A DNA stretch of 59,810 bases from a virus. The position numbers were made by a program, and so were the translations under genes. This document shows, one piece after another, positions 5,771 through 41,531 of this stretch. Numbering within the stretch: position 1 is the first letter of the stretch; every line of letters starts with the position of its first letter. Location: IMG/VR virus record IMGVR_UViG_3300046787_000377, positions 1 through 59,810 of that record, one strand, 5' to 3'. A model generated the notes under the pieces. That model saw only the letters and a list, made by a program, of their open reading frames with translations, was not told the origin of the DNA and searched no databases.

Positions 5771-8700
5771 ATGAACGAACTAAGTAAATACCTAGCAGAA
5801 CAAATTCTATTGACTGAAGAAGAGTTAAAGAATTTTGTAGTAATATATGCAGGTAGATTCCAACCATTTCACAAAGGACACTTTGCAACTTATCAAGGAC
5901 TAGTAAAAAAGTTTGGTAAGGATAGAGTGTTTATCGGTACATCGAATAAAACCGATAATCAAAAATCCCCATTTAACTTTAAGGAAAAGAAAACCATAAT
6001 GACTAAAATGTTTGGTATACCATCAAACAAAATAGTTGAAGTGAAGAATCCTTATGCTCCAACTGAAATACTTAAAAATTTTGATGAAAATACAACCGGA
6101 TTTATTACTGTTGTTGGTGAGAAAGATGAACAACGTTTGGGTGGTAAATACTTTGAAAAATATAAAGGTAAAATAGAATTTGGGTATAAAGATAAAGGAT
6201 ATGTTTATGCTTCACCTGCACAACCAAACGCGGTTAGTGGAACTGATGTTCGTAATTGGTTAAGCAAAGGAACTGATGATGAAAAGAGAAAAAATTTCTT
6301 AAAAGCATACCCAAAATTTGATGAAACAATTTATAAATTCATTACACTTAAATTAGCAAAATTAGGTGAAGGTTTACATGAATCTATAAATGAAGCAAAA
6401 TGGGAAGAAGATACATATAGAAAGTGTATGCTAGGTAAATTACCACTTTCACTTAATATTGTTAAAAAATTAGTAGACCCTATAAGAACAACATCATTAC
6501 ATTCAACTGATGTTGAAAATTTATCAAACGTTGCTGGATTACAAGGAACTAAAAAATCAATTTCCACATTTACTAAAACTACCAAATGGGGAAAATTAGT
6601 TCAAGGAAAAGGTATGCATACAAAAGGTGGTGTAATTGTAGCATTATCAGGAGTAGTATTGGCACAAAGTATAATGGACTTGTGGACCGAACCTGATAAA
6701 CAAGGTAGAAGATGGGTAGAACCAGGAACTGTAATAGATGGGTTGGGTAGAGAAAGAGATGTTGTATTTAATTTTGCACCGGAATTAAAACCATACAAAG
6801 AAAAATGGAGAGAACATTCTTTTGATGGTACAATTACTAATGCAGAAAAAGCTGAATTCATAAAAAAATATTATGATGCAGCTGAAAAATATATGTTGAG
6901 TAAGAAAAAAGAATTTCAAGACAAATACTTAAACTCAAATAAATTATATTATGATTCTGATTGGAATGAAGTAGTTCTTACTGATATTAAAATTGAAAAG
7001 ATTTTAGCAGTTCCTTCTAACTGGAGTGATGATGAAGTTGAAAATGAAAAAACATTAAAACAACTTAAACAAAAATACAAAAATGTAGAAGTTGCAGATA
7101 AAGAATCTGAAATTCAAAACTTTATTAAACGAAATGGTGGAAGTATTGTAGAATCAGTAAATGAAGAAATTACATTAGATGTCAATATTGGTGATACCGT
7201 TTTAATGGGTAAATTTAAGAATAAAAAAGTAGTTGTCAAATCAATCGGTAAAGATGAACATGGAATGCCAACTATTAATGGTAAAAAAGTGGCTACATTC
7301 AGAATAATACCAAAACAAAATATTTTTAAAGAAGTTGCATCTATATCAAACGCAGGTGCAGATTCACAACCGGATGGTGGTTATATACCAAAAGGTAAAA
7401 AACGAAAATTAGGAGCAGATGATGGTGCTAATAGTAGTGATGAGTGGTTCGTAAGAGGTGGGTACACTCAAACCGATTTTCCTAAAGCAGATGCAATATT
7501 TGATAAAGAGGATGAAAATCAATTTACATTTAAAATTAAATCAAAAAATAATGCTAGAAGTGATTTTGATGCAACAACATACCCATATGCACCAACTGAT
7601 ATTGATGTAACAAAACCAGTGGAGAAAATAAAAGTGAAAAAACCTAAAAATAAAAAATTGGATATTGTTAAAGAATTGGTTGATGAATATTCTGAACTAT
7701 TAGATTTATTAGAAGCTTCTTCGGAAGATGAGAAATACACCCATATTGGGTATGGTAAATATAAAGAAAAAGGTAAAGAAAAAGACCAAAATTCTCCTAC
7801 ATTTACTAAAGATGATAGTGGAAAGTATATTCAATCAAAAACTGATACTAAACCTACACAAGATAAACCAACTGGTCAAGCAATACAAGGTGCAGATATG
7901 TTTAAACACGATAAAAGTGTTAAACAAGAACCTACAAAATCTAAAACGGATTGGACAAGTGGAAAAGATGGTTGGGAAATAATTGATGATGAGCGTTCTA
8001 AGGTAAAAAATATTAGACCATACACCGATGAAGAATTACAAGGTGAAACTGGTGAATATTTTGATAACGATGTAACTAAAAACGTTGCACCAACCGCTTT
8101 TAAAGATGAATCTGATATGATTCAAAAAATAAAAGATGCAACTCCAACTTATTTATCATCCGAGCAACTTCAAAATATGAATAACTCCGATGTAGGGGAT
8201 ATTCTTTCTGCAAGCGAAGATGGTGGTAAAGATTCCATGATGAAATTGGGACAAGAACGTGCAATGGATTATGGTAAAGATTGGAATAGATTAATAAAAG
8301 GTATTCAGACCGGGAACGATGTACCACCACCAATTGCATTAAAAGATAAAAATGGTGAACTACACTTAGTTGCAGGAAATACTCGTTTAATGTCATTTAC
8401 TGCCAATGGTAAAAACCTACCCGTAAAGGTAATAGATTACGATGGTGAGTTTAACTATGACGATAAAGGGGATTCACAATCAACTGAACCTAAACGTTCT
8501 ATATCAAAGAATATACAACGAAAAATTAGTGGTTGGGCAGAAAAAGAAAAAGAATTTTTTACTAAATCTCAAGATAAACCTAATTCAGAAACTCGTAGAA
8601 CAATTGGTGAAGCATTAAGAGATAAAGCAAAAGGAGCCGGGAAAGCAATTGCACATGGATTTAAACATGAGGCACATTTATTTAAAGAAGCAGCAAATGC

Positions 8701-11524
8701 AGTTAAAAAATTCTCAACTGGTAAAGAACTAAGTGATTCTGATAAAAAAGCAGTGAAGGATGTTGCTATAAAAGTAGTAACAACCGCAGTTACTGCAGCT
8801 GCAATGGGTGGGTTAGCAGGTGGAACAATTGCTTTTGCAAAATTAGTGGCCATTGAGTTAGTACCTCACGTAGCAATTGAAACTTTAGCAGTAGGTGCTG
8901 GTAAAGCTGCATTATTTGCAGATACAAACGAAGATGAAAGAATGTTGATGGGATTTATGGAAAAGATTATTGATGGGATAGAATCAATGGAAATACCAGA
9001 TGATGTGATGGAAAAAATTGTGGATTCATATAATGAAAAAAAGAACGTATCGGAAATGAGTCATTCACAATTAAATCAAATTGAAAAATATGCAGAAAAA
9101 CAATTATCACCAGAAGATATTGAATTTACTAAACATTTTTTTGATAGAGTAAATGATACCCGTAATGGTAAAGAAATATCTGATGCAGAATTGACAGGAT
9201 TTTTTAAACGTTTATCTCGTCACAAAAAACAATTTAAAGAATTCTTAGACAAATATCAACAAATCGTTGTTAAAGATAAACGAAATGGTATAAACATTCC
9301 TTTTGTTAAACAAGCAAATCAAATTATTGCAAAAACTATAATGAGAAAAGATAATTTCCAAACATCAAATCCAACTTTAGCAGTTGAGATTGCAGTACAA
9401 ATAGATAAAATTCCCGGTGGATTAGCAAAAGGATTAACATTAAATGATATTGCTAAAAAACACAATGTGTCGATTGAAGATATAACTAACGAATTTAAAA
9501 AAGGTTATAAAGTAGAAAGAGAACATACAACTGATAGTGATGTTGCTAAAGAAATAGCAATGGACCATTTGTTTGAAGACCCTAAGTATTATGATAAATT
9601 AGCAAAAATTGAAGAGGCAGGTAGAGTTCCACAGAGTTTTAATTATGGAACTGGATGGGATTACCATACTGCGATTGGTACTAATCCAAATAAATATAAA
9701 GGTAAAGCAAATTTTCCAACTAAATATTCTGGCCAACCTGATTTAGAAGATAACTCTGATGATGTTAATGAATTAACTAAGGGAGAAGTTTTTGGTGGAA
9801 CTTTAAAAATTGGTGGTCAGCCAGTTAAAGTAGAAGTAGAATTGATGGGTTCTGATAATAAAAAGAAAGTATTCATAACAAAAGTACTTCATATTGATAG
9901 TAAATATCGTTCTAAACTACCTTCAAATGGAATATTAGAAATACCTGCTAGAATATTTAGAACTCCTGGTGGTGGGTGGTATAAAATCAAAACACCATCA
10001 GCGTTTGAATCGGTAAACGAATTAACTTACAAAGAAAAGCAAATTAAAACGGGAAATCCTGCTAATATATTTTATGCATTCTATAAAGGGAAATTTGATG
10101 TAGTTTATTGGGCTATGAATCCTAGTTCTTTATATGATATGTATTGGGATGAATTCAAAGTAAGAAGACCGGCAGGTTCTAAATTCAAATTAAATCCGGA
10201 GTTTATGATTGTTCCTAAAAAAGAATATGATAAACATCCAGAACATTATAGTAAATTAAAACCATATGTAGATAAGTTTTGGGATAAATTAAAAAATGAA
10301 TCGGTAAATGAATCACTTTTAATTGAAGGTGGTGCATATGGGCATATGAATCATCCATTTGATACTGAAATTAATTTAACATTTGGACAACTTAAAGATA
10401 TTGTAAATCGTGCATTAGAAGGTAACTTAGAATTGGCTAGAGAAAAAACTGATGGACAAGCATTGGCAATCAGTTGGGTAAACGGAAAATTAGTAGCAGC
10501 AAGAAATAAAGGTCATTTAGCTAATAGAGGTGCTAATGCATTAGATATTAGTGGAATTGCTACTAAGTTTGCTGGAAGAGGTGAGTTAGAAAAAGCATAT
10601 AATTTTGCAATGCAAGATTTGACAAAAGCTATTAAATCACTTTCGGATAAACAAAAAGAAAAGATTTTTAAAAATGGTGCATGTTTTATGAATATTGAGG
10701 TAATATATCCAACTTCAGTAAATGTGATTCCATATGGTCAACCTCTATTAGTATTTCACGGAACGATGGAATATGATGAAAGTGGTAACGCAATTGGTGA
10801 AGACCAACAATCCGGTAGAATATTGGGTGGTATGATTAAACAAATCGAACAAAATGTACAAGATAATTATACATTACAAGGACCACCGGTATTAAAATTA
10901 CCTAAATCACAAGACCTTTCATCTAAAAAACCAAAGTATCTTGCTAAGATTTCAAAATTACAAAAAGAATTTGGATTGGGTGATACTGCAGGTGTTGCAG
11001 AATACCACCAAGCATGGTGGGAAAACTTTGTAGATAAAAAATCACCATCTATTTTAGATAATACTACTAAAATTGGATTAGTTAAAAGATGGGCATTTGG
11101 TGAAAAGGGTTTCCGTATAGATAAGAATACAATTTCTGATGAGAAAACTCTTGCATGGGCAACTAAAATAGATAAAGAAGACCACAAAAAAATTACCAAA
11201 GAAAATCTTATGAAATTTGAAGATATATTCTTAGGTGTGGGTGCAGAAGTTTTATCATTCACAGCATCGGTATTAACTGTGAATCCAGATAAGGCTGTTA
11301 GGGATATGAAAAAACGTTTAGAACAAACAATTAAAGATGTCGAAGTAAGCGGTGACCCTAAGAAGATAGAAAAATTAAAATTAGAACTAAAAAGATTAAA
11401 TGCAATCGGTGGACCTGATAAGATAGTTCCAATTGAAGGGATTGTGTTTATTTATAATGGACAAACATTTAAATTAACTGGTGCGTTTGCATCATTAAAT
11501 CAACTTTTAGGAATTTTTTATTAA
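5771..11524 (+). CDS. Giant multidomain protein: NMNAT-like, ParB-like and ligase-like domains with internal protease-site-like linkers
   Basis: The protein has 1917 residues. The leader MNELSKYLAE ends in L-x-E, like T4 capsid-targeting sequences. Residues about 20-200 form a nucleotidyltransferase with GRFQPFHKGH (H34-x-G-H37) and SGTDVR (156-161), as in NMN adenylyltransferases. ESINE/ESVNE linkers occur at 204-208, 461-465, 1413-1417 and 1510-1514, with DVNE at 1331-1334. Other parts are a ParB-like domain with GNTRL near 869-873, an Ala/Gly-rich hydrophobic stretch near 994-1050, and a conserved-looking module with HFFDRVNDTRNG and KTIMRK. Residues 1515-1917 carry ligase/nucleotidyltransferase motifs: K1559-T-D-G, N-I-E1643, E1889-G-I-V-F and K1901-L-T-G. 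I infer a prohead-packaged polyprotein cut at the linkers. An ordinary cytosolic fusion protein is the alternative. Confidence 0.75.
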   Translation: MNELSKYLAEQILLTEEELKNFVVIYAGRFQPFHKGHFATYQGLVKKFGKDRVFIGTSNKTDNQKSPFNFKEKKTIMTKMFGIPSNKIVEVKNPYAPTEILKNFDENTTGFITVVGEKDEQRLGGKYFEKYKGKIEFGYKDKGYVYASPAQPNAVSGTDVRNWLSKGTDDEKRKNFLKAYPKFDETIYKFITLKLAKLGEGLHESINEAKWEEDTYRKCMLGKLPLSLNIVKKLVDPIRTTSLHSTDVENLSNVAGLQGTKKSISTFTKTTKWGKLVQGKGMHTKGGVIVALSGVVLAQSIMDLWTEPDKQGRRWVEPGTVIDGLGRERDVVFNFAPELKPYKEKWREHSFDGTITNAEKAEFIKKYYDAAEKYMLSKKKEFQDKYLNSNKLYYDSDWNEVVLTDIKIEKILAVPSNWSDDEVENEKTLKQLKQKYKNVEVADKESEIQNFIKRNGGSIVESVNEEITLDVNIGDTVLMGKFKNKKVVVKSIGKDEHGMPTINGKKVATFRIIPKQNIFKEVASISNAGADSQPDGGYIPKGKKRKLGADDGANSSDEWFVRGGYTQTDFPKADAIFDKEDENQFTFKIKSKNNARSDFDATTYPYAPTDIDVTKPVEKIKVKKPKNKKLDIVKELVDEYSELLDLLEASSEDEKYTHIGYGKYKEKGKEKDQNSPTFTKDDSGKYIQSKTDTKPTQDKPTGQAIQGADMFKHDKSVKQEPTKSKTDWTSGKDGWEIIDDERSKVKNIRPYTDEELQGETGEYFDNDVTKNVAPTAFKDESDMIQKIKDATPTYLSSEQLQNMNNSDVGDILSASEDGGKDSMMKLGQERAMDYGKDWNRLIKGIQTGNDVPPPIALKDKNGELHLVAGNTRLMSFTANGKNLPVKVIDYDGEFNYDDKGDSQSTEPKRSISKNIQRKISGWAEKEKEFFTKSQDKPNSETRRTIGEALRDKAKGAGKAIAHGFKHEAHLFKEAANAVKKFSTGKELSDSDKKAVKDVAIKVVTTAVTAAAMGGLAGGTIAFAKLVAIELVPHVAIETLAVGAGKAALFADTNEDERMLMGFMEKIIDGIESMEIPDDVMEKIVDSYNEKKNVSEMSHSQLNQIEKYAEKQLSPEDIEFTKHFFDRVNDTRNGKEISDAELTGFFKRLSRHKKQFKEFLDKYQQIVVKDKRNGINIPFVKQANQIIAKTIMRKDNFQTSNPTLAVEIAVQIDKIPGGLAKGLTLNDIAKKHNVSIEDITNEFKKGYKVEREHTTDSDVAKEIAMDHLFEDPKYYDKLAKIEEAGRVPQSFNYGTGWDYHTAIGTNPNKYKGKANFPTKYSGQPDLEDNSDDVNELTKGEVFGGTLKIGGQPVKVEVELMGSDNKKKVFITKVLHIDSKYRSKLPSNGILEIPARIFRTPGGGWYKIKTPSAFESVNELTYKEKQIKTGNPANIFYAFYKGKFDVVYWAMNPSSLYDMYWDEFKVRRPAGSKFKLNPEFMIVPKKEYDKHPEHYSKLKPYVDKFWDKLKNESVNESLLIEGGAYGHMNHPFDTEINLTFGQLKDIVNRALEGNLELAREKTDGQALAISWVNGKLVAARNKGHLANRGANALDISGIATKFAGRGELEKAYNFAMQDLTKAIKSLSDKQKEKIFKNGACFMNIEVIYPTSVNVIPYGQPLLVFHGTMEYDESGNAIGEDQQSGRILGGMIKQIEQNVQDNYTLQGPPVLKLPKSQDLSSKKPKYLAKISKLQKEFGLGDTAGVAEYHQAWWENFVDKKSPSILDNTTKIGLVKRWAFGEKGFRIDKNTISDEKTLAWATKIDKEDHKKITKENLMKFEDIFLGVGAEVLSFTASVLTVNPDKAVRDMKKRLEQTIKDVEVSGDPKKIEKLKLELKRLNAIGGPDKIVPIEGIVFIYNGQTFKLTGAFASLNQLLGIFY

Positions 11525-12243: not shown

Positions 12244-13830
12244 ATGGCAGGTGCTTCATTAAAAGATATAATTAAAATTGAGTATCAGAAATGTGCTGGT
12301 GACCCGATATATTTCATGCGTAAGTATTGTATGATTCAACATCCGGTACGAGGTAAAATTCCATTTCATTTATATCCATTTCAGGAAGATACTCTAACCG
12401 ATTTCAAAAATAATCGTTATAACATCGTATTAAAATCACGTCAGACAGGTATATCTACCTTAGTTGCGGGATTCTCTCTTTGGAAGATGTTATTTAATCA
12501 AGATTTTAACGTATTGGTAATTGCAACTAAACAAGAAGTTGCTAAAAACCTTATCACAAAGATTAGGGTAATGAATCAATACCTTCCAAGTTGGTTAAAA
12601 CAAACCACAGTTGAAGATAATAAACTTTCCCTACGTTACTCAAATGGTTCACAGGCAAAAGCAACTTCTGCAGCAGGAGATGCTGGTCGTTCTGAAGCCC
12701 TATCGCTATTAGTATTTGACGAGGCAGCCTTTATTGATAGTATTGAGGAGATTTGGATATCTGCCCAATCTACATTATCAACGGGTGGTAACGCAATTAT
12801 CCTTTCTACACCAAATGGTGTGGGTAATTTCTTTCATAGAACGTGGGTAGGTGCAGAAGAGGGTAGAAACGGATTCAATACTATTCGTTTACACTGGTCA
12901 GTACACCCTGAGCGTGCTCAACCGTGGAGAGATGAACAAGAAAGGTTATTAGGACCAAAAGGTGCAGCACAAGAATGTGATTGTGATTTCGTAAGTTCCG
13001 GTGATACGGTCATTGACCCTGCATTATTACAATTTTATAGAGAAACATATTGTCAAGAACCTTTAGAGAAGACTGGATTCGATGGAAACCTTTGGAAATG
13101 GGAATATCCTGATTATAATCAATCATATATGGTTGTTGCCGACGTTGCTCGTGGAGATGGTGGGGATTATTCCACTGCACAGGTATTTGATGTAGTAAAT
13201 TCGACACAAGTTGCAGAGTATAAGGGGAAATTGGATACAAAAGATTTTGGAAACTTCTTAGTTTCACTATCAACCGATTACAACAATGCATTATTAGTTG
13301 TGGAGAACGCAAATATTGGTTGGGCCGTTATTCAACAAGTAATTGATAGGAGTTATGGAAACTTATTTTATATGAGTAAGGATTTAAAATATGTAGATGT
13401 TGCCCATCAGATGACAAATAAGTTTAGAGCAGAAGAACGAGGTATGGTTGCTGGGTTCTCTACCACCTCTAAAACCCGTCCATTAATTATTTCTAAGTTA
13501 GATGATTACCTAAGAGAAAAATCCTTTACAATCCGTTCTACAAGGTTAATTGATGAACTATTTACATTTATTTGGAATGGTAATCGAGCAGAAGCAATGA
13601 AAGGTTACAATGATGACTTAGTTATGGCCCTTTCGATTGGATTATGGGTTAGGGATACTGCATTAAGATTAAGACAAGAAGGTATAGATTTAACTAAACA
13701 AGCATTAGGTGGTATAAATCAAAGTATAACACAAGTTGATGGGTTCGGTGGTAATAGTTCTTTTGATGAAAACCCTTGGCAAATGAGAGTTGGTAATCAA
13801 ACCGAAGATTTGTCGTGGTTACTAAAATAA
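12244..13830 (+). CDS. terL: Terminase large subunit
   Basis: This is the 528-residue packaging motor. The ATPase domain has a Walker A-type loop K64-S-R-Q-T-G-I-S-T72, Walker B LLVFDE at about 154-159 and the coupling motif ILSTPNG. The C-terminal nuclease domain shows VVADVARGDGGDYS with the first metal-binding aspartate, LLVVENANIG, and GYNDDLVMALS supplying the last acidic pair. Length and motif order match T4 gp17-type terminases. It cuts concatemeric DNA and pumps it through the portal encoded at 14312. It is followed by a late-promoter-like element. Confidence 0.97.
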   Translation: MAGASLKDIIKIEYQKCAGDPIYFMRKYCMIQHPVRGKIPFHLYPFQEDTLTDFKNNRYNIVLKSRQTGISTLVAGFSLWKMLFNQDFNVLVIATKQEVAKNLITKIRVMNQYLPSWLKQTTVEDNKLSLRYSNGSQAKATSAAGDAGRSEALSLLVFDEAAFIDSIEEIWISAQSTLSTGGNAIILSTPNGVGNFFHRTWVGAEEGRNGFNTIRLHWSVHPERAQPWRDEQERLLGPKGAAQECDCDFVSSGDTVIDPALLQFYRETYCQEPLEKTGFDGNLWKWEYPDYNQSYMVVADVARGDGGDYSTAQVFDVVNSTQVAEYKGKLDTKDFGNFLVSLSTDYNNALLVVENANIGWAVIQQVIDRSYGNLFYMSKDLKYVDVAHQMTNKFRAEERGMVAGFSTTSKTRPLIISKLDDYLREKSFTIRSTRLIDELFTFIWNGNRAEAMKGYNDDLVMALSIGLWVRDTALRLRQEGIDLTKQALGGINQSITQVDGFGGNSSFDENPWQMRVGNQTEDLSWLLK

Positions 13831-13877: not shown

Positions 13878-14300
13878 ATGATAAAGTTAAAAAACATTTA
13901 TAAGGAAGAAGTAGAGGATTACCCATTCGACCAACCAGAACATAGTATTTACGATTATGATGAATTGGATGTTGAAGATGAAGATGAGGAAGATTTTTTA
14001 AATTTTCTTAAATCATACACAACTGAATTAAAAGAAGCAAATTGTAATTGTGTGTTCGAAGCAGAATATCAAGGAAGAGATGTGAAGTTGGGTAAACCAA
14101 TGCAAGGTGATGTTAAGAAATTTAAAGTTTATGTTAAAAACCCAAAGACCGGAAAAGTAGTTAAAGTAAACTTTGGTCAACCGGGAATGAACATTAAGAA
14201 AAATAACCCCGAAAGAAGAAAATCTTTTAGAGCAAGACATAATTGTGACCAACCAGGTCCAAGAACAAAAGCACGTTACTGGTCTTGCAGAAAATGGTAA
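13878..14300 (+). CDS. Small prohead-associated protein with capsid-targeting-like leader
   Basis: The 140-residue protein starts MIKLKNIYKEE, a leader resembling those at 19536 and 20784. An acidic stretch of Asp/Glu follows (about 26-42), and then a conserved-looking basic C-terminal domain: YQGRDVKLGKPMQGD, KVYVKNPKTGKVVKVNFG, RRKSFRARHNC and a final ARYWSCRKW. The C-terminal domain resembles small proteins I recall near head genes of marine T4-like phages. Five cysteines are present, including C-x-C near the middle. The position between terminase and portal and the leader suggest packaging in the prohead; function is unknown. Confidence 0.75.
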   Translation: MIKLKNIYKEEVEDYPFDQPEHSIYDYDELDVEDEDEEDFLNFLKSYTTELKEANCNCVFEAEYQGRDVKLGKPMQGDVKKFKVYVKNPKTGKVVKVNFGQPGMNIKKNNPERRKSFRARHNCDQPGPRTKARYWSCRKW

Positions 14301-16108: not shown

Positions 16109-16981
16109 ATGAAAAAAATAAAACATTCGAAATTCAAAAATACAGGGTTCTTATTTGAATTATTAACACGTCAAATAACGTTGGAAATATTAAACAACGC
16201 ACCTGAAGAAAAAGCCAAAAGAATAGTACAAGAATTCTTTGGTGGAAAAACTGAATTGGCTAAGGAATTACGCTTATTTAATTTGTTAATAAACGAAAAG
16301 TATAATTCAGAGAGTAAAGCAGAAAAGTATATTGATGCTATTATCGAAACTCGTACAAAATTAGATGAAAATAAACTTGCAAGAGAAAAATATAATCTTG
16401 TAAAGTCAATTAAAGAAAATTTCGAATTAGATTCATTCTTATCATCTCCAGTATCTAACTATAAAGTATTGGCATCAGTTCATAAGATATTTGAAGCAAA
16501 GATACAAGATGTAACTAATGTTAAAGATGTATTTGATGCTAAATTGACATTAATCGAACATATATCTACAACAACTCCATCTTTAAAACAAAAAGAAGAT
16601 AAGTTGATGGAAGATTATAGAAAACAAGAGAAAGATTTAAGATTACTTACATATAAAATTCTTGTTGAAACATTTAATAAGAAATATACCAACTTAAATG
16701 ATGACCAAAAGGATATTTTAAGAGAGTATATTAACAATGTAAACAACACTTCTAAATTTGGTGAATATTATGATTCTAAATTGAAGGTTGTTGTAACTGA
16801 ATTACACAAACTTTATTCCGAAGTTAATGATAAAATCACAAAGATTAAGTTGAAAGAAACTATTAATGTTATGAAACAACAGAAAATTGGTAAAAAAGTT
16901 ACCGATGAACAAGTTTCTGCATTGATGATGTCATATGAATTAATAAAGGAAATAAAAAATGTTAAAGAAAGAAAATCTTAA
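16109..16981 (+). CDS. Putative prohead core protein
   Basis: The 290-residue protein is highly charged and almost entirely helical, with a distinctive N-terminus (HSKFKNTGFLFELLTRQIT) that I recall in related marine myoviruses. It lies in the interval between portal and prohead protease where T4 has core genes 67 and 68. No enzymatic motif is seen. Its last codons overlap the next gene by 23 nt. A core/scaffold component or internal protein is likely by position; direct homology to gp67 or gp68 is not claimed. Confidence 0.7.
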   Translation: MKKIKHSKFKNTGFLFELLTRQITLEILNNAPEEKAKRIVQEFFGGKTELAKELRLFNLLINEKYNSESKAEKYIDAIIETRTKLDENKLAREKYNLVKSIKENFELDSFLSSPVSNYKVLASVHKIFEAKIQDVTNVKDVFDAKLTLIEHISTTTPSLKQKEDKLMEDYRKQEKDLRLLTYKILVETFNKKYTNLNDDQKDILREYINNVNNTSKFGEYYDSKLKVVVTELHKLYSEVNDKITKIKLKETINVMKQQKIGKKVTDEQVSALMMSYELIKEIKNVKERKS

Positions 16982-17816
16982 ATCGTATATAGACGAACTT
17001 ATTAAGGAAGTTGAAGAGGAGTTAGAAGAAGCCAATGTGACAGGTAATGTCGATGGATATCAGACTCCTTTTGCTTTTTCTGGTAAGAGTGCTTCTCAAA
17101 AACGAAAAAAAACAGCAACTCAATTGGGATACACGTTGGTAAATAACGATGTTAAAAATATTGATGAAGTAAACGAAGCAACAGCATCTGAAATCATAAA
17201 AGATTTAGATAAAGTACGAAACGATTTAATTAAAAAAGTAGATGTATTAATTGCTAAAAAGAAAAAACTTTATTCTAATGTTGATATTGAATCACCAATG
17301 AGTGCAGATGAGAAACAATTAGATAAAGATATACAATCTATATTTTCACAAATCCAACAAATAATTCAGCAAAAAAGAAAAATAAAAGAATCAGTAAACG
17401 AAGACAAAGTTTATATTGATTTTTTAAATAAGAAAAAAGGATTCAAGCAAGATAGAATTAAATTCAATTCATATGAAGAAGCTGTAAAGTGGGCAAGAAA
17501 AAATTTTGATAAGTTTGACCCTGATATGATTAAATACGAATCAGTAAACGAAGGTAAATCAAAAAGACCTGTGAATCGTTGGTTAGAATTGAAAAATGAT
17601 GAATCTATGCATGCTAATAAGAAGTTAGCAGTAGGATTGAAAGAATTAAAACATCAGTTAAGTGAGGTTGAAAAGTTTTTTCGTTGGTATAACCAAATTA
17701 AAACAATGAATGAGTTATCATCGGATGTTTTTTGGAAAAGAACTCACGGTCATATTTATAAGATAAAGGAAAGACTGATTAATATCGCAAAAACAATACA
17801 GGAGATAGAAAAATAA
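16959..17816 (+). CDS. Modular prohead cargo/core protein with three VNE sites
   Basis: This 285-residue protein has an N-terminal amphipathic leader rich in I/L-x-E (SYIDELIKEVEEELEEA). DEVNE at 69-73, ESVNE at 144-148 and ESVNE at 194-198 divide it into segments. The 45-residue piece between the last two (DKVYIDFLNKKK to DPDMIKY) looks like a self-contained alpha/beta mini-domain. The same linker separates domains of the protein at 5771. I read these as cleavage sites for the neighbouring gp21-type protease (inference from the T4 [LI]-x-E rule). No catalytic motif is visible. It ends on the first base of the next start codon. Confidence 0.7.
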   Translation: MLKKENLKSYIDELIKEVEEELEEANVTGNVDGYQTPFAFSGKSASQKRKKTATQLGYTLVNNDVKNIDEVNEATASEIIKDLDKVRNDLIKKVDVLIAKKKKLYSNVDIESPMSADEKQLDKDIQSIFSQIQQIIQQKRKIKESVNEDKVYIDFLNKKKGFKQDRIKFNSYEEAVKWARKNFDKFDPDMIKYESVNEGKSKRPVNRWLELKNDESMHANKKLAVGLKELKHQLSEVEKFFRWYNQIKTMNELSSDVFWKRTHGHIYKIKERLINIAKTIQEIEK

Positions 17817-18289
17817 TGAAAATATCAAGAGCAAGATTAAAAGAAATTGTAAAAGAAGTGATGGTAGAAGAAACTGAATACCAGCAATTCTTTCAAAAAG
17901 CATTAGATAAGGCTGGTAAATCAATACCAGATATGTCGGAAGAAGAAAAGAAAGCTTTCTTTGATAAAATAGATTCTGCGTGGAATGGTAAGGGTGAAAA
18001 GAATGAGGAATTAGTTGGTGGTCAAAAAAAATTAGATATTGATAAAGATGGTGATATTGGAAGTGATGATTTAGCAGATTTAAGAGCCGGTAAAAAAGCA
18101 AATGAATCTATAAATGAAGAAGATATTAATTGGGGTGCAACCGAAAACGCAATCATTAACTTTCTAAAAGCAAATACAAAAATTTTAGATAAAAGAGTTA
18201 AAGATAGAGATACTGATGGTGTTAAAAAGGGATTACAATCAATCATTGATGGTTTAACTAACGCACAACGCAGTTTAAAATTAAAATAA
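17816..18289 (+). CDS. Small prohead protein with EF-hand-like loop
   Basis: The 157-residue protein starts MKISRARLKEIVKEVMVEE, an amphipathic leader with L-K-E and V-K-E. Residues 74-85 (DIDKDGDIGSDD) have the 1-3-5-7-9-12 pattern of an EF-hand/dockerin calcium loop: D74, D76, D78, G79, I81 and D85. ESINE follows at 97-101. The remaining C-terminal piece is a small helical domain. Placement directly before the protease genes, leader and linker argue for a prohead-internal, processed protein. Calcium binding is predicted from the loop only, because a single unpaired loop may not bind tightly. Confidence 0.7.
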   Translation: MKISRARLKEIVKEVMVEETEYQQFFQKALDKAGKSIPDMSEEEKKAFFDKIDSAWNGKGEKNEELVGGQKKLDIDKDGDIGSDDLADLRAGKKANESINEEDINWGATENAIINFLKANTKILDKRVKDRDTDGVKKGLQSIIDGLTNAQRSLKLK

Positions 18290-18294
18290 CAACA

Positions 18295-18471
18295 ATGACT
18301 AAAAAAAGATTGTTAGAAATAATTGACGAAGAAATCCTTAAAGTAAAATGGGGGTTTGTAAACGAAGAAATTACTAGTGAGGATGAAAAACTTATTAGAG
18401 ATATTATTCGCAAAGAAGTTTCTGCAATATTTTTTGACTTATTTAAAAAACGAAACGTTTGGGGAGCATAA
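18295..18471 (+). CDS. Small prohead-associated protein, 58 residues
   Basis: An ATG five bases after the previous stop opens a 58-codon frame ending in TAATG, so its stop overlaps the ATG of the protease gene. The product starts MTKKRLLEIIDEEILKVKWG, continues with FVNEEITSEDEK and ends FFDLFKKRNVWGA. The leader with I-D-E and the VNE at residues 22-24 match the pattern of its neighbours. Its size and position resemble the small core genes before gene 21 in T4-like phages. The tight overlap supports a real translated gene. No function can be assigned. Confidence 0.6.
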   Translation: MTKKRLLEIIDEEILKVKWGFVNEEITSEDEKLIRDIIRKEVSAIFFDLFKKRNVWGA

Positions 18472-19064
18472 TGAAAAATTTATTAATTGAGACTAATCTT
18501 TTTGAGGGTAGAATCAACGAAGATGCATCTGGTAGAACACTTGTTAAAGGTGTATTACAAAGAGCAGTAGCAGAAAATCAAAATGGTAGAGTATATCCAA
18601 GAGAAATTTTGATGCGTGAAGCAAAGAAATATGAAGTTCTTATCAAAGAGAGAAGAGCATTAGGGGAATTAGACCATCCAGATTCATCGGTAATCAATCT
18701 AAAGAACGTTTCTCATAACATTAGAGAAATATGGTGGGAAGGTGATGATTTATGCGGAACAGTAGAAATCTTACCAACACCATCAGGTAACATATTAAAA
18801 GAATTATTAAGAGCAGGAATCCTATTAGGTATTTCATCTCGAGGTATGGGTTCAGTATCACCAATGGGTGAGGGTAAAGTAAAAGTTGGCGATGACTTTG
18901 AATTGATTGGGTGGGATTTCGTATCTAACCCATCTACTCATGGTGCATTTATGACACCAATGAACGAATCCGTAAACAAACAATTACAAGAACAAGCGAT
19001 AGTATGTGGTGATTTTTGTAAGGCACAAGACCTTATGAGAGAAATCATTACTGAATTATCATAA
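18471..19064 (+). CDS. gp21: Prohead core protease
   Basis: This 197-residue serine protease matches the T4 gp21/HK97 prohead-protease family. RALGELDHP carries the catalytic histidine (H69) and GISSRGMGS the nucleophile serine (S122 or S123). The ATG at 18471, overlapping the preceding stop and preceded by GGGGAG, is preferred over the in-frame TTG at 18459. The N-terminus contains LIE, LFE and INE, all fitting the [LI]-x-E self-cleavage rule. ESVNK near the C-terminus is a variant of the ESVNE linker with lysine at the cut position. It degrades scaffold and trims the capsid protein. Confidence 0.93.
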   Translation: MKNLLIETNLFEGRINEDASGRTLVKGVLQRAVAENQNGRVYPREILMREAKKYEVLIKERRALGELDHPDSSVINLKNVSHNIREIWWEGDDLCGTVEILPTPSGNILKELLRAGILLGISSRGMGSVSPMGEGKVKVGDDFELIGWDFVSNPSTHGAFMTPMNESVNKQLQEQAIVCGDFCKAQDLMREIITELS

Positions 19065-19535: not shown

Positions 19536-20765
19536 ATGATTAAATTACACAATTTACTTAATGAAGAAACTTTTACCGCTACTAACAAAGCAAGTGGTAA
19601 AACATCAGTATTTAAATCAAAAGATAGTAGAGATGCTGCAATTAAAGCAGGAACTCACTCTGAAAAAGAAGATAGTAAATCAGATAAATCTGTTGGTAGT
19701 TCTTCAAAGGTAAATATCTTTGATAAACCAACAAAATCAGAACCTAAATCGGCATCAACATCTACTCCATCTAAAATGGGTGTAGATTCGGTAGTATATA
19801 ATACGAGAACTAAAACAGTTGGTATTGTAAGAATGGCTGATGAAAGAGGTGAAACTAAAACTGATGCAGATGGTAATGTAAATACATCTGAATTAGAACC
19901 ATACAACCCAACCAAGTATCCACATCAAAAAGATGCTAAAGTTGCACCATCTACTCAAAAAGAAGTAGATAAGAGAGGTTTATGGAATCCATTTGCACAA
20001 GATAAAGAAACTTCTAAAGAAGAACCTACTCAAACTGTAGCAGAACCTAAAAAGAAAAGACCGGGCAACCCATCGGTAAATAAAGAAGCTAAAAAGTTAG
20101 CGGATAAGTTTGGTATTAATCCAAATAAGATGAGTAAAGAAGATTACATCACTAAGATGTATCAAGCAGCAGTTTCTGCATTAACTGATTCAAATTTCCA
20201 TAGTGAAGCAAGAGAATTAGTTGCAGCAATTGAAGGAAAACCTGAATGGGCTAAAAGACCGGTGTATCCATCTTTACAAGACCCCGACTTTAAAGAGAAA
20301 ATGAAAGCTATTCGTACTAATTCGGCTGATAGTTCGATTTATATGAATGCAAAAGATGAAGTTGATGAATATGGTACGGAAGTATCACAAGCATCAGGAT
20401 GGGATGGTGTTGATGCAGCTGATGGTATTGCATTTACATTAAGAATGAACGGATTCCACAAACAAGCCGATATGATTCAATCTGTATTTGATAATAAACC
20501 ATATATGAAGAATGAAGGTAGAATTTCATTAAGTAAAATGATGAATGAATCAGAAGCAGAAGAAATTGCTAGTTTAACTGGTTTAAGAACACAGGCTGTT
20601 AAAAAATTCATTGATGATAACAACATTGACGATAGAAAATTATTAGCATATCTTAAAATTAAAGGTCCAAAGACATTAAGTAATAGAATGGATATGTCAA
20701 CTGCAATTGTAGGTAAACCGAATAACAAATTTGCACAAGGAATTATCAAAGCATTTCAAAAATAA
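19536..20765 (+). CDS. Prohead-internal protein with capsid-targeting-like leader
   Basis: This 409-residue protein begins MIKLHNLLNEE, where L-N-E at residues 8-10 fits the gp21 cleavage rule. Residues about 12-40 contain TATNKASGKTSVFKSKDSRD, a segment I recall as recurrent in marine phage proteins. A Ser/Thr/Lys/Pro-rich low-complexity linker follows (about 45-185). The C-terminal half holds helical regions including HSEARELVAAIEGKPEWAKRP, then MMNESEAEEIASLTGLRTQ and a small helical end domain. Location and leader suggest it is enclosed in the capsid. Biochemical function unknown. Confidence 0.68.
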   Translation: MIKLHNLLNEETFTATNKASGKTSVFKSKDSRDAAIKAGTHSEKEDSKSDKSVGSSSKVNIFDKPTKSEPKSASTSTPSKMGVDSVVYNTRTKTVGIVRMADERGETKTDADGNVNTSELEPYNPTKYPHQKDAKVAPSTQKEVDKRGLWNPFAQDKETSKEEPTQTVAEPKKKRPGNPSVNKEAKKLADKFGINPNKMSKEDYITKMYQAAVSALTDSNFHSEARELVAAIEGKPEWAKRPVYPSLQDPDFKEKMKAIRTNSADSSIYMNAKDEVDEYGTEVSQASGWDGVDAADGIAFTLRMNGFHKQADMIQSVFDNKPYMKNEGRISLSKMMNESEAEEIASLTGLRTQAVKKFIDDNNIDDRKLLAYLKIKGPKTLSNRMDMSTAIVGKPNNKFAQGIIKAFQK

Positions 20766-20783: not shown

Positions 20784-21878
20784 ATGATAAGTTTATCAAA
20801 AATAGTTAAAGAAGGTGAAGAACCAAAGAAATTTTCTAATGAAGTAAAAAAACATTTTTTAGAAATCGTTTCTACATACAACAAGTATCAAGAAATGATG
20901 GATAGAAAATCGGATATTGCTGAAATTGCAGAAATTTTAGGTGGAATTACTGAAGCAGCTAGAGAATTAGCGATAAACGAATCAGATGATTGGTTCGATG
21001 CTCAAACTGTTAAAAGAAATATGAGTGAATTGGCTAAATTAGGTGGCCAATTTGATAAAGTAGCAATCGAAGCAAAAAACTTAGACCAAAGATTACATGG
21101 ATTATACGAAGATATGGGTCATATCCTATCTCGTTACTATAAAATTGGTGAAGTTAGTGAAGAAACGATGAAACAACGTTTGGGTATCAAAGAAGCATCT
21201 CCTTGTTGGGATGGATACAAACAAGTTGGAATGAAGACCAAAGATGGTAAAGAAGTTCCTAATTGTGTACCTGCAAATGAATCAATTAAAGAATCTACTG
21301 ATTGTGGATGTAATTCGGTAAACGAAGCATTCGTAAAAGGCAAAACTTATGGTGGAACTAAATGTGAAGGTGGATGTTATGTGGGTAAACAAGGTTTAAT
21401 GAAACTAATTAAAATTTCTAAAGATAATCCAGAAAATGTATTTATGTTTAGAGATGATAACTATTCAGGAATACAACCACATTTCATTAAGAATGGTGTA
21501 ATTGCAAAAGCAAATACAATTAATCCATCTTATGATTTAGAAAAAAGTAAAGTAAGAAATTTAAAAATCGGTAACGATGTTATTCTTGCAGTTAGATTAT
21601 TTGAATCAGTAAACGAAGCAGCATTTGGATATAAAGACTCATCTGCATCATACATTGATAAACATAAAGATGAATACAAAACAGCAGAAAAAATGAATAA
21701 AGGAAACGAACAATCGTTTTATGATTCATTATCTGCATTAGAAGAGAAATTAGGTCATCCTAAGTATATGATATTCTTATCAAATGCGTTAAGAGGATAC
21801 AAAGTTGATATGTATAAAGACCCAAAAATTAAAAATCAACAAGAAGCAGAAGAAGCATTGTTCCTTTTAAGCAAATAA
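20784..21878 (+). CDS. Modular prohead-internal protein with VNE sites
   Basis: This 364-residue protein starts MISLSKIVKEG, a leader ending V-K-E. Residues about 20-130 are a helical domain. A Cys-containing segment (ASPCWDGYKQVGMKTKDGKEV) resembles short repeats I recall in phage proteins. ESIKE at 166-170, NSVNE at 177-181 and ESVNE at 274-278 then separate two compact modules: TKCEGGCYVGKQGLMKL to DVILAVRLF, and AFGYKDSSASYIDK to the C-terminus. The same linker occurs in the giant protein at 5771. I infer cleavage into mini-proteins inside the prohead. An AGGAGA site precedes the start. Confidence 0.7.
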   Translation: MISLSKIVKEGEEPKKFSNEVKKHFLEIVSTYNKYQEMMDRKSDIAEIAEILGGITEAARELAINESDDWFDAQTVKRNMSELAKLGGQFDKVAIEAKNLDQRLHGLYEDMGHILSRYYKIGEVSEETMKQRLGIKEASPCWDGYKQVGMKTKDGKEVPNCVPANESIKESTDCGCNSVNEAFVKGKTYGGTKCEGGCYVGKQGLMKLIKISKDNPENVFMFRDDNYSGIQPHFIKNGVIAKANTINPSYDLEKSKVRNLKIGNDVILAVRLFESVNEAAFGYKDSSASYIDKHKDEYKTAEKMNKGNEQSFYDSLSALEEKLGHPKYMIFLSNALRGYKVDMYKDPKIKNQQEAEEALFLLSK

Positions 21879-22443: not shown

Positions 22444-23532
22444 ATGGCAAACTCAAAATTGTTAAAAGATGCAATTGCTGATGCTAAAGCCGTACGTGAA
22501 ACTGCTATTGCTAACGCTAAAATCGCATTAGAAGAAGCTTTTACTCCAAGATTACAATCAATCTTATCTAAAAAACTTACCGCTGAAATGGAAGGTGAAG
22601 AAGAAGAAACTGATGTAAATGAAGAGTATGGTGCTGATGATGTAGATGCAAACGATTCAACAGAAATCGGAGCAGGCGAAGGACAAACAGGTAGTGGAAC
22701 TGATGGTGATGCACCACAAGGTATCGCAACTGATGCTCACACTGAATTAGGTGACACAGAAAAAGAAACAGCTGAACCAGGTAAAGAGGATGAAAACATG
22801 CCTCTTGCAGAAGGTGAAGAAGATGAAAACCAAGATGGTGTTATTGATGACCCAACGGGTGCAGTAACCGAAGAAGAAGACGAAGACGAATTAGATTTAG
22901 AATCAATCATCAGAGAATTAGAAGATGAATTGGGTGCTGAATCTGACGAAGTTTCTGAAGAAGATGAAATGGAAGCTCCAGCAGTTGAAGAAGAAGAAGA
23001 AGCTTCTCCAGCAGTTGAAGAAGAAGAAGAATCTCAAGAAGCTGAAGTATCGGAAGAAGACGAAATCGACTTGGAAGAAATCTTACGTGAAATGGGATAC
23101 GGAGATGATGCAGAAGAAAAAGTTGAAGAAAGTGAAGAAGAATCTGATAATGTAGCCGAAATGGAAGCAGAATTAGAAGAAGCTTACAAAGTAATCAAAT
23201 CTTTGAAATCTACAATCAACGAAGTAAACTTGTTAAACGCAAAGTTACTTTACACTAATAAATTATTCCGTTCTTATGATTTAACAAACGAACAAAAACA
23301 CAAAGTTGTTGAAACATTAGACAGAACTCAAAATGTTAGAGAAGTAAAATTAGTTTTCGCTACATTAGCTGAATCAATGAAAATTGGTGGAACTGCTAAG
23401 AAAGTAAAAACAAACAAAATAACTGAATCATTCGCATCTAAGAAAGTTGCTTCAACTGCACCAAAGGCTGCAATTATCAACGAATCAAACGATATGGCTG
23501 AAAGATTTAAAAAGTTAGCAAACATTAAATAA
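22444..23532 (+). CDS. gp22: Prohead scaffold (core) protein
   Basis: The 362-residue acidic protein lies directly upstream of the major capsid gene, as gp22 does in T4. The N-terminus LLKDAIADAKAVRETAIANAKIALEEAFTP is a helical alanine-rich segment typical of marine T4-like scaffolds (quoted here only as its family hallmark; key part KIALEEAFTPRLQ). The centre is extremely acidic with repeated EEEEE runs (about 150-245). A coiled coil follows (about 245-280), and the protein ends ERFKKLANIK. D-V-N-E at about 57-60 and I-N-E near the end fit protease sites. It forms the inner core that the protease degrades before DNA packaging. Confidence 0.88.
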   Translation: MANSKLLKDAIADAKAVRETAIANAKIALEEAFTPRLQSILSKKLTAEMEGEEEETDVNEEYGADDVDANDSTEIGAGEGQTGSGTDGDAPQGIATDAHTELGDTEKETAEPGKEDENMPLAEGEEDENQDGVIDDPTGAVTEEEDEDELDLESIIRELEDELGAESDEVSEEDEMEAPAVEEEEEASPAVEEEEESQEAEVSEEDEIDLEEILREMGYGDDAEEKVEESEEESDNVAEMEAELEEAYKVIKSLKSTINEVNLLNAKLLYTNKLFRSYDLTNEQKHKVVETLDRTQNVREVKLVFATLAESMKIGGTAKKVKTNKITESFASKKVASTAPKAAIINESNDMAERFKKLANIK

Positions 23533-23566: not shown

Positions 23567-25177
23567 ATGGCAAATTTTAATTTATCAAAACTTATGGAAG
23601 GCAAGAACCCACAGTCAGTAATGTTGGCTGAAACACGTCAATTACGTGGTAAATGGGAGAAAACTGGTCTTTTAGAAGGTTTAAAGGAGAGAGAATCTTC
23701 TCAAGTAGCAGTTCTTTTAGAGAACCAAGCTAAACAATTATTGGATGAAGCAACTGCAACAGGTACTTCTGCAGGTTCAGAAGAGTGGAGTGGTGTAGCT
23801 TTACCATTGGTAAGACGTATTTTTGGTGAAATCGCAGCGAAAGAATTCGTTTCAGTTCAACCAATGAACTTACCATCAGGTCTTATCTTCTATCTAGATT
23901 TCAAATACGGAACAGCAGTTCAAGGTTCTAAATTCAATGGTAAATCATTGTTTGGTGGTAACGGAACTTCTAACTTCGATGGTGATTTCGGTAGAACTAA
24001 AGAAGCTGTAAACGGTCTTTATGGTGAAGGAAGATATTCTTACACAATCAACGACCAATCAGTATCAGTATCAACTGGTAACCAAACTTATACAACAGCA
24101 TCATGGGCTGATGTAAATTATGATGCATCTTTATCTGCTTCAATCGCTGCAGGTCAAGTTGCTAAAATCGTAGTTGCAAAATCAAACATCAACTCAGCAG
24201 CTGATTTTGATGCAGTACGTTCATTCTACATCTCTGCATCAGGTTTCTCTGCAGCAGATACATTCTACCCATTGCATAGCCAAGTAGTATCTTCAAACGT
24301 AGAATTCTTTGCAAAAGTTGCTACAGTAGCTACTAAAACTGCATTGACAGTTAATTATTCTTTGGCACCAACTGATACAACTCGTGGTGATTTCGAAGAT
24401 GCTAACCCAACTGAACCAGCAACTGATTTAGGTATTCCAGAAGTAGATTTGGAATTACGTTCAGAGGCTATCGTTGCTAAGACTCGTAAGTTAAAGGCTG
24501 TGTGGACTCCAGAGTTGGCACAAGACTTAAACGCTTACCACTCAATTGATGCAGAAGCTGAATTAACTTCTATGTTATCTGAATACATCTCATTAGAGAT
24601 TGATTTAGAAATCTTAGATATGTTAAAAGCTAACGCTTTAACAACTGAGTACTGGTCAGCAACAATCGGTGAAGAATTCAATGGTTCAACTTGGACTGCA
24701 GGTTCTTCTTCATTGGCATACCAAAAGAACACATGGTTCCAGACTTTAGGAACTAAGATTAATAAGGTATCTAACAAGATTCACCAATTAACATTAAGAG
24801 GTGGTGCAAACTTTATCGTTGTATCTCCAGATGTTGCTACAATCTTAGAATCAATTCCTGGATTCACAGTAAACGCAGACAAAGATGCTACATCTTTCGC
24901 AGCAGGTGTTTCTCAAGTAGGTTCATTGGCTTCACGTTATACAGTTTACAAAAACCCTTATATGACTTCTAACGAAATCTTATTAGGATTCAAAGGTTCT
25001 AGTTTCTTAGAGACTGGTGCTGTATACGCTCCATATGTACCATTGATTATGACTCCATTAGTGTACGACCCAACTAACTTCACGCCAAGACGTGGTGTTA
25101 TGACTCGTTACGCTAAGAAGATGGTCCGCCCAGAATTCTACGGCAAGATTTACATCAAAGATTTAGCTTCAGTTTAA
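23567..25177 (+). CDS. gp23: Major capsid protein
   Basis: The 536-residue protein matches T4 gp23: after a helical N-terminal region comes EEWSGVALPLVRRIFG, then FVSVQPMNLPSGLIFYLDF, and near the end PLVYDPTNFTPRRGVMTRYAKK. The family has an HK97 fold. LLDE at residues 58-61 fits the [LI]-x-E rule, so I predict maturation cleavage after Glu61, close to Glu65 in T4. A strong AAGGAGAG site precedes the ATG. A stable terminator with a UUCG loop follows, consistent with a very highly expressed gene. No separate gp24-like vertex protein is visible here. Confidence 0.97.
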   Translation: MANFNLSKLMEGKNPQSVMLAETRQLRGKWEKTGLLEGLKERESSQVAVLLENQAKQLLDEATATGTSAGSEEWSGVALPLVRRIFGEIAAKEFVSVQPMNLPSGLIFYLDFKYGTAVQGSKFNGKSLFGGNGTSNFDGDFGRTKEAVNGLYGEGRYSYTINDQSVSVSTGNQTYTTASWADVNYDASLSASIAAGQVAKIVVAKSNINSAADFDAVRSFYISASGFSAADTFYPLHSQVVSSNVEFFAKVATVATKTALTVNYSLAPTDTTRGDFEDANPTEPATDLGIPEVDLELRSEAIVAKTRKLKAVWTPELAQDLNAYHSIDAEAELTSMLSEYISLEIDLEILDMLKANALTTEYWSATIGEEFNGSTWTAGSSSLAYQKNTWFQTLGTKINKVSNKIHQLTLRGGANFIVVSPDVATILESIPGFTVNADKDATSFAAGVSQVGSLASRYTVYKNPYMTSNEILLGFKGSSFLETGAVYAPYVPLIMTPLVYDPTNFTPRRGVMTRYAKKMVRPEFYGKIYIKDLASV

Positions 25178-25749: not shown

Positions 25750-26607
25750 ATGTCAGCAACAGTAACTTCATTTACAGGTTTACAAAACCTAACAAATATA
25801 CAACAATTTAAAGCAGATTACAATAGTTTAACATCTATTGATTTATCAGGAATGTCATCACTTACTCTTGTAGATATAAGTGATAACGATATACCTGATA
25901 GTTCTACCAGTAGTTTAACATCTGTTAATTTAAGTGGATGTACAACATTAGAACAACTTTATATTGATGATAGTGATTTTTCAGCAGGACTACCTGATTT
26001 ATCAGACTGTACATCTTTGAAATATATAGATGCTGACCAATCTAATTTAGTAGGTTCAATTGATTTATCTAATTTAACTACATTAGAAGGTTTTGATTTT
26101 AATGGTAATTTAGGATTAACCGAAGTGATTATATCACAAACACAACCATTGGGTGAAAATGGAAATAGTATATCATTGGGTAATTGTGCTTTAACTCAAA
26201 CCGCAGTAGATAATATACTTGTAGCATTAGCTAGTGGAAGTATTTCAAGTGGAGATATTGATGTTGATAATGATAGTGGTGGAACTAATGCAGCTCCTAG
26301 TCAAATAGGAAGAGATTCACTTTTTATTCTTGACTCGAGAGGCTGGGGTATTAGTGTCGCAGATGGAAACCACACTATGTTGACAGTATCATATGATTTA
26401 CTCGAAGCTAATATATGTGCCGCTAGTAATACTGATTACGTTTACATCACATCCGGTTCAACATTAGAAGTTGGTAACATATTATATCGAAATTCAGATG
26501 CATATCTACCCGCAAACGATGGTTGGTGGAGACTTGATGGTGATGGTTCAATTAAATTTGAAGTAAGTGGTAGTGGTGAAATAATATCCGTTGCACCTTG
26601 TGTATAA
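25750..26607 (+). CDS. Leucine-rich-repeat surface protein
   Basis: The 285-residue protein contains about six irregular leucine-rich repeats in the first 140 residues (motifs such as LTSIDLSGMSSLTLVDISDN, SVNLSGCTTLEQLYIDDS and SIDLSNLTTLEGFDFNGN), like BspA-type surface repeats. It ends with a beta-rich domain containing DGWWRLDGDGSIKFEVSG and a terminal APCV. No signal peptide is present, so it is probably assembled on the virion. Its pairing with the PKD-like gene and position after the capsid gene suggest a capsid-surface fibre or decoration that binds host surface or environmental glycans (inference). Confidence 0.6.
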   Translation: MSATVTSFTGLQNLTNIQQFKADYNSLTSIDLSGMSSLTLVDISDNDIPDSSTSSLTSVNLSGCTTLEQLYIDDSDFSAGLPDLSDCTSLKYIDADQSNLVGSIDLSNLTTLEGFDFNGNLGLTEVIISQTQPLGENGNSISLGNCALTQTAVDNILVALASGSISSGDIDVDNDSGGTNAAPSQIGRDSLFILDSRGWGISVADGNHTMLTVSYDLLEANICAASNTDYVYITSGSTLEVGNILYRNSDAYLPANDGWWRLDGDGSIKFEVSGSGEIISVAPCV

Positions 26608-35420: not shown

Positions 35421-35442
35421 GAGTAAAACATAAAAAAATAAG

Positions 35443-35473
35443 AATCCCTCACAATAGTGGGGGATTTTTTTTT
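35443..35473 (+). terminator. Rho-independent terminator
   Basis: AATCCCTCAC pairs with GTGGGGGATT around AATA with one G-U pair, followed by at least eight T residues. Confidence 0.88.
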
Positions 35474-35543
35474 AACTTTTACTTTTACAATACTTATATA
35501 AGTGTAAATGGCATTATGCATAGGGTAAATTTACCAATTATTT

Positions 35544-35553
35544 ATATTTATAT
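35544..35553 (+). promoter_or_regulatory. Late-promoter-like element
   Basis: ATATTTATAT lies 25 nt before the ATG at 35579, downstream of the fibre terminator; ATAGGAAA precedes the start. A second variant (ACTTATATAAG) lies further upstream near 35494. Confidence 0.48.
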
Positions 35554-35578
35554 AAAATAAAATAGGAAATCATAATAA

Positions 35579-39241: not shown

Positions 39242-39251
39242 ATATTTATAG
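39242..39251 (+). promoter_or_regulatory. Late-promoter-like element
   Basis: ATATTTATAG begins one base after the preceding stop codon and lies 17 nt before the ATG at 39269. Confidence 0.48.
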
Positions 39252-39268
39252 TAAATAAAACTAAACTT

Positions 39269-39907: not shown

Positions 39908-39914
39908 AAAATAT

Positions 39915-39924
39915 ATATTTATTA
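39915..39924 (+). promoter_or_regulatory. Late-promoter-like element
   Basis: ATATTTATTA lies 26 nt before the ATG at 39951, with AAGGAAA before the start. Confidence 0.42.
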
Positions 39925-39950
39925 TAAGTTAAATAATTAAGGAAAAAGAG

Positions 39951-41462: not shown

Positions 41463-41469
41463 TTCCAAC

Positions 41470-41487
41470 ACTCCTTATATAAGGAGT
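41470..41487. other. 18-bp perfect palindrome
   Basis: ACTCCTTATATAAGGAGT is a perfect palindrome eight bases after the S74 fibre stop. A short T-rich but interrupted tract follows, so it could be a weak terminator. As DNA it could equally be a protein-binding site, and in RNA it would place GGAG in a stem. No ATATTTATA element is found before the next gene, so readthrough is possible. Confidence 0.4.
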
Positions 41488-41531
41488 TTCTAATTTAAGT
41501 AATTATATAATGAAATTGGTAAGTCATACAT

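Follow-up and report, generated by a model that had tools for sequence, protein, structure and literature searches.

The window (the whole stretch of viral DNA analysed here, 59,810 nucleotides) encodes a 1917-residue protein, P0001, which very probably is a head-targeted polyprotein that would be cut by an S77 prohead protease and whose modules would be injected. Phage proteins are normally made singly; it is RNA viruses and retroviruses that characteristically process one chain into several enzymes. In the mechanism we propose, independent modules would be translated as one chain; the short head-cluster leader of this lineage would stand, as a copy or a remnant, at its start and between its modules. 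The leader would recruit the chain into the prohead core, and the protease, encoded 7 kb downstream, would cut the leader and every linker after [LI(V)]-x-E. The freed proteins (NMNAT-type, possibly ADP-ribosyltransferase-like, small, weakly RegB-like, DUF5661 and ligase-like modules) would stay in the head and be injected with the DNA. The linkers would have originated as N-terminal leaders of once-separate internal-head-protein genes that were fused in frame. An earlier note on this DNA had suggested that separate enzymes are made as one chain and released by maturation cleavage. At the level of sequence this suggestion is supported by edge sites, conserved P1 and P3 residues, a leader-bearing separate gene, internal leaders, module shuffling and terminase linkage; the comparisons further indicate that the system is modular, recombining and common to other head genes, which amends the earlier reading.

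Linkers of the probable polyprotein

The features assigned to the polyprotein ORF are as follows.

5771..11524 (+), putative modular head polyprotein P0001, 1917 aa (ORF translation; terminase 3' in relatives)
5771..5818 (+), N-terminal leader MNELSKYLAEQILLTE, aa 1-16, capsid-targeting-like, with a conserved [LI]xE at its end
5831..6367 (+), NMN/cytidylyl-type adenylyltransferase module, aa 21-199 (PF01467; PDB NMNAT by profile and fold)
6380..6394 (+), linker 1, ESINE, aa 204-208 (within 200-211, pLDDT<50)
6395..7150 (+), module 2, aa 209-460, mobile (alignment A3; after [LIV]NE in 10/10 contexts)
7151..7165 (+), linker 2, ESVNE, aa 461-465 (within 460-469, pLDDT<50)
7166..7306 (+), small beta module, about aa 466-512 (relatives' alignment and model)
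8261..8506 (+), ParB-like-looking segment, aa 831-912, VAGNTRL (weak lead, read from sequence)
9038..9388 (+), module, aa 1090-1206, C-terminal part of phrog_23027 (weak RegB-like similarity)
9446..9616 (+), DUF5661 domain, aa 1226-1282 (family match)
9758..9772 (+), linker 3, DDVNE, aa 1330-1334 (in a pLDDT<50 segment)
9773..10006 (+), mini-module, aa 1335-1412 (xxE precedes it in relatives)
10007..10021 (+), linker 4, ESVNE, aa 1413-1417 (in a pLDDT<50 segment)
10022..10297 (+), mini-module, aa 1418-1509 ([LIV]NE precedes it in 3/3 contexts)
10298..10327 (+), linker 5, ESVNESLLIE, aa 1510-1519 (P1 E, P3 L/I in 32/32 and 40/40 contexts)
10328..11521 (+), ligase-like nucleotidyltransferase module, aa 1520-1917 (KxDG/E/EG/KLTG; separate-gene forms)

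The four ESINE/ESVNE motifs and the DVNE reported earlier were found at exactly the residues given (ESINE at 204; ESVNE at 461, 1413 and 1510; DVNE at 1331), and residue shuffles yielded 0.003 ES[VI]NE per protein of such composition, compared with the four observed. As the codon sets differ among all four, the copies did not arise from a single duplicated DNA repeat. Elsewhere in the window, ES[VI]NE was detected only in ORFs 16959 (two), 17816 (one) and 20784 (one), all within the head cluster. In the closest near-genome-size relatives, G001 (287 kb, 380 called ORFs) and G002 (289 kb, 400 called ORFs), the motif is confined to four and three ORFs, respectively, distributed over the head cluster and another region, where small leader-bearing genes also occur. 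Counts of [VIL]NE by themselves separate head from other proteins poorly, and the polyprotein is no outlier.

The T4 prohead protease cuts by an [LI]-x-E rule. The earlier equation of V/I-N-E with this rule does not extend to V at P3: three of the ES[VI]NE sites and DVNE read V-N-E, and the strict T4 rule has no V at that position. Leaders of this lineage that end in VNE suggest that V may be an acceptable P3 residue. The site placed just before the ligase-like domain is likewise partly confirmed; ESVNE is present there, but the best-supported predicted cut lies five residues beyond it, after E1519 (LLIE, 1516-1519, followed by GG).

In AlphaFold2 models (mean pLDDT 63), all five linkers fall in segments below 50, and none overlaps the parts of the NMNAT, module 2 and ligase that are folded with confidence; no motif was seen inside a folded domain. 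About one third of all residues are below pLDDT 50 and overall confidence is moderate, so linker disorder alone is weak, supportive evidence. The ligase module has fewer [LI]xE sites than expected (7 versus 24.5), with observed/expected ratios of 1.39 for [LI]xD and 1.57 for [LI]xK, and a proteome average of 1.15 for [LI]xE; a ratio of 0.35 or less for [LI]xE also occurs in 4-6% of other proteins. This depletion is as expected if internal cut sites are avoided in the module.

Modules and predicted activities

The nucleotidyltransferase domain reported before the first linker is well supported: the PF01467 match spans residues 25-162, NMNAT structures were matched, and the CTP_transf_like fold and signature of NMN adenylyltransferases are present. 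All listed matches in the PDB fold search with the N-terminal model were nucleotidyltransferases. Module 2 (about residues 204-465) had no significant match in Pfam, PHROGs or NCBIfam. Its motif pattern in alignment A3, HxT / SIxTF / WNE, resembles that of ADP-ribosyltransferases, and we treat such an activity as a lead only. ADP-ribosyltransferases have been proposed as frequently packaged in myovirus heads (PMC9503650). No Pfam match was found for residues 831-912, and residues 1090-1206 matched PF10715 at E=0.004, short of the curated cut-off of that family.

The KxDG, E, EG and KLTG columns of the ligase module are invariant in alignment A2 and correspond to the KxDG, E, EG and KxxG motifs of the ATP/NAD-dependent ligase superfamily. 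The module by itself had no significant match in Pfam, PHROGs or NCBIfam, and the C-terminal model had no PDB fold match at E<0.001; the ligase-like assignment made earlier stands on its motifs but gains nothing significant from families or PDB folds. One relative matched PF09414 at 0.07, and a BFVD search with the C-terminal model returned mainly phage proteins named cytidyltransferase-like. Several modules carry a predicted activity only. The ligase module is no rarity, since at least 560 stretches of public viral contigs were confirmed in the ligase search.

Junctions in relatives

The first search for relatives gave 79 loci. The residue preceding the ligase module (GGAYGHM) is E in 32/32 non-redundant contexts and P3 is L or I in 32/32, with P2 free, as the T4 rule [LI]-x-E prescribes. 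When a diverse ligase alignment was used to seed a second search, 40 new contexts (25 non-redundant) were added, and 40/40 obey the rule; the conserved ligase junction is partly inherited along with the module, which counts against the polyprotein reading. All ten contexts of module 2 have [LIV]-N-E ahead of it. At the remaining modules the rule is mostly obeyed, with P3 being A, T, F or Y in some relatives. Polyproteins are expected to keep protease-rule sites at the boundaries of their modules; such conserved sites are present here, and this search of related genomes for motif-spaced modules, together with the models, upholds the earlier placement of the motifs at domain edges. Raw ends of BLAST segments were too fuzzy to serve as module boundaries (36% near [LIV]xE, 15% for random positions), so anchored junctions were used instead.

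These junctions bear on the possibility that a packaged polyvalent protein acts as one uncut chain with the linkers as flexible spacers, which we consider unlikely. Spacers would need neither E at P1 and L or I at P3 with a free P2 in 32/32 and 40/40 contexts nor a match to the leader ends of separate genes, even though the linkers do lie in low-confidence model regions, multi-domain injected phage proteins are known and phage N4 packages its virion RNA polymerase without processing it (PMC5512222).

Leaders

A short N-terminal leader with [LI]xE, as in T4-type internal head proteins, was found in 24/24 distinct relatives (50% after shuffling). The earlier note had the leader of the window protein end in LAE. 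The LAE at residues 8-10 is real, but it is not conserved (relatives have LAQ, LVD or LAN) and was rejected as the leader end; the conserved site is LLTE at residues 13-16, which has low pLDDT. Leaders of the MI(K/R/S)LxxLLNE kind occur in nine ORFs of G001 (0.8 expected) and in four ORFs of the window (0.15 expected), namely the polyprotein and three head-cluster genes; the pattern was written after the leaders had been seen, and the excess over shuffles is descriptive. The leader-bearing head genes are otherwise unrelated to one another. The lineage leader resembles the T4 capsid targeting sequence, which is 10-20 residues long and removed by gp21 (PMC5694885).

A second cluster far from the head operon was observed in G001 (83.8-89.8 kb, L087) and G002 (237.7-246.1 kb, L122-L123). 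It contains several ORFs with head-type leaders (MKLQNLLNE, MITLKSIIEEA, MIKLANLLNE) and ESVNE proteins, and the leader-bearing ORFs are likely to encode further injected proteins.

Head-gene cluster

The polyprotein gene is followed by terminase, portal, protease and capsid genes. Features assigned downstream of it in the window are listed below.

12244..13830 (+), terminase large subunit (phrog_2)
13878..14300 (+), ORF with leader MIKLKNIYKE (leader pattern)
16959..17816 (+), prohead-region ORF with DEVNE and two ESVNE (mini-module common to relatives' polyproteins)
17816..18289 (+), prohead-region ORF with ESINE (motif scan)
18471..19064 (+), prohead protease, Peptidase S77, T4 gp21 family (PF03420 E=3e-27, phrog_207)
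19536..20765 (+), ORF with leader MIKLHNLLNE (leader pattern)
20784..21878 (+), ORF with leader MISLSKIVKE and internal ESIKE, SVNE and ESVNE (motif and leader scan)
22444..23532 (+), acidic ORF directly 5' of the capsid gene, candidate scaffold/core (position, composition)
23567..25177 (+), major capsid protein, Gp23 family (PF07068 E=1.5e-77)

A cognate S77/gp21-type protease, as expected for T4-type internal proteins, is thus encoded in the same genome, and it is the predicted processing enzyme of the polyprotein. A scaffold role for the acidic ORF is suggested by its position and composition; its G001 homologue ranks top for [VIL]NE. In the capsid protein, a candidate site of maturation cleavage lies after E61 (LLDE61 followed by ATATG), near the start of the Gp23 family match. 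Linkage to packaging and head genes, which is characteristic of polyvalent proteins, is constant: the terminase gene lies 0.7-3.7 kb 3' of the polyprotein gene in 69/69 relatives with enough flank.

That the protein is an unpackaged multi-enzyme chain active in the infected cell is very unlikely given this constant position in the head operon. A role of the NMNAT and ligase-like domains in NAD salvage or RNA repair is conceivable, but the leader is like those of head-cluster genes, and mini-modules are common to polyproteins and a prohead-region gene.

Three further features of the surrounding regions were observed. A leucine-rich-repeat-like ORF (25750-26607) stands immediately 3' of the capsid gene. 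Several large ORFs at 32676-43640 begin alike, with MAxIxKxRRGS, and are probably of the tail-fibre type, sharing an attachment domain. In two relatives (L151, 2085-2772; L154, 4838-5519), two overlapping small membrane/lipoprotein-like ORFs precede the terminase gene in a spanin-like layout.

Separate genes, fusion and module shuffling

In six loci the ligase module is encoded as a separate gene of 414 aa, whose product starts with MIRLHKILNEVLLKE followed directly by GGAYGHM, or close variants; the start is spelled MIRLHKILNE, VLLKE and GGAYGHM in succession. A 462-kb phage has a separate ligase gene with the leader MKFLKSYEEFLNENLILE before GGSYGH. In L157 the separate ligase gene is located directly 3' of a 1298-aa NMNAT-led gene; in L184 the NMNAT and ligase genes are fused, and the leader, including its start Met, is kept internally (SEEMIRLKKLLNEVLLTE followed by GGAYGHM). 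A Met-led leader is likewise retained at the ligase junction of L181, and in marine short forms the stretch ahead of the ligase nearly copies the N-terminal leader of the chain itself. These separate and fused forms are the strongest evidence that linkers act at a junction as leaders act at the N terminus, and the linkers are probably leaders and protease sites kept when genes fused.

Complete chains in relatives range from about 760 to about 2000 residues, with common NMNAT and ligase-like ends and a variable middle. A longer relative, an open chain of about 2400 residues with the ligase module last and a P-loop-like start (AGGPGSGKSYVAGG), was observed in L141 (1-7287). Module 2 follows the NMNAT in the window; in L039, L055-L057 and L059 it adjoins the ligase on the N-terminal side, and in L014 it is placed in the later part of the chain. 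The mini-module of window ORF 16959 recurs within relatives' polyproteins and in other genes. Modules are therefore seen to reorder, split, fuse and move between genes, and each chain has several distinct recombining domains, as do polyvalent proteins. Among cultivated phages, Microcystis phage Mel-JY01 has a fused NMNAT-ligase form, and Flavobacterium phage immuto has related head genes; its 841-aa protein immuto35A_191 (L082, 12756-15281), encoded near the terminase gene, contains ESVNE and ESLNE. Sinorhizobium phage phiM12 gp159 and Melnitz phages share single modules alone and are uninformative on linkers.

Since each module would bring its own cut site, modules could be added, lost, reordered and swapped between head genes. 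A general cargo system is likely, in which leader-bearing internal-head genes fuse and split and the protease yields a changing set of injected enzymes; the targeting leader would then double as linker, cleavage site and recombination seam. We regard it as highly improbable that the linkers are mainly recombination seams, that is, short DNA homologies that are left uncut. Modules are indeed shuffled at linker points, but this may be a by-product of the polyprotein organisation favoured here; the four copies differ in codons and have unrelated flanks, conservation is at protein P1 and P3 with P2 free, and leaders of separate genes carry the same residues.

Comparison with known systems

In T4, gp21 strips targeting leaders of 10-20 residues, cuts Alt at ITE-6 and, near the C terminus, at LTE-619, and also cuts the scaffold into fragments (PMC5694885). 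The polyprotein is like T4 internal proteins and Alt in its N-terminal leader with [LI]xE and in the S77 protease of the head operon; T4 internal proteins, however, are single proteins, and the cuts remove propeptides and do not release a set of modules from one chain. In SPN3US and phiKZ, a related protease (gp245/gp175) cleaves many head proteins on the C-terminal side of Glu; several SPN3US cut sites lie in propeptides, 13 of the 14 mapped sites remove N-terminal propeptides, and none releases separate enzymes (PMC10052503).

Polyvalent proteins, known from phages and conjugative elements, are multi-domain and injected, and Iyer et al. (2017; PMC5512222) liken them to RNA-virus polyproteins and ascribe their release to embedded metallopeptidases. 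The polyprotein resembles them as a multi-domain, recombining, predicted head-packaged set of effectors. Unlike theirs, its junctions match the rule of a trans-acting prohead protease and correspond to retained head-gene leaders. The P1 proteins DdrB, DarA and DarB are large and head-packaged, the N terminus of DarB targets it, and DarA and DdrB are proteolysed; no repeated linkers or multi-enzyme release from one chain are reported in the portions of these sources consulted (PMC9024508, PMC5512222). The polyprotein may thus be viewed as a variation on polyvalent and internal head proteins, with leader-derived linkers that would be cut.

Neither a phage polyprotein released by a prohead protease nor virion proteomics or cleavage data for any phage with the polyprotein gene were found in the literature searched, which mostly excludes subscription papers. 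If the cargo-system reading is true, as is likely, this would be, so far as that literature shows, the first phage polyprotein released by a maturation protease, and a dsDNA phage lineage would use its head-maturation protease for polyprotein processing. It would also explain how many effectors could be loaded in matched quantities and delivered jointly, and the leader and [LI]xE rule would allow injected proteins, as well as natural cargo tags, to be listed from genome sequence alone.

Cutting by a peptidase domain within the polyprotein, as proposed by Iyer et al. for other polyvalent proteins (PMC5512222), is extremely improbable: HExxH is present in the chains of 27/80 relatives and in a repeated HEM[VA]H segment of one clade, but the window protein has no HExxH (embedded metallopeptidases being frequent, not universal, in polyvalent proteins), members without it keep the conserved junctions, and the junction rule is of the T4 gp21 type, with an S77 protease encoded nearby. 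The clade in question (L027, L035-L059) carries the metallopeptidase-like repeat ILRT[LIV]AHEM[VA]HRKQDE in its polyproteins.
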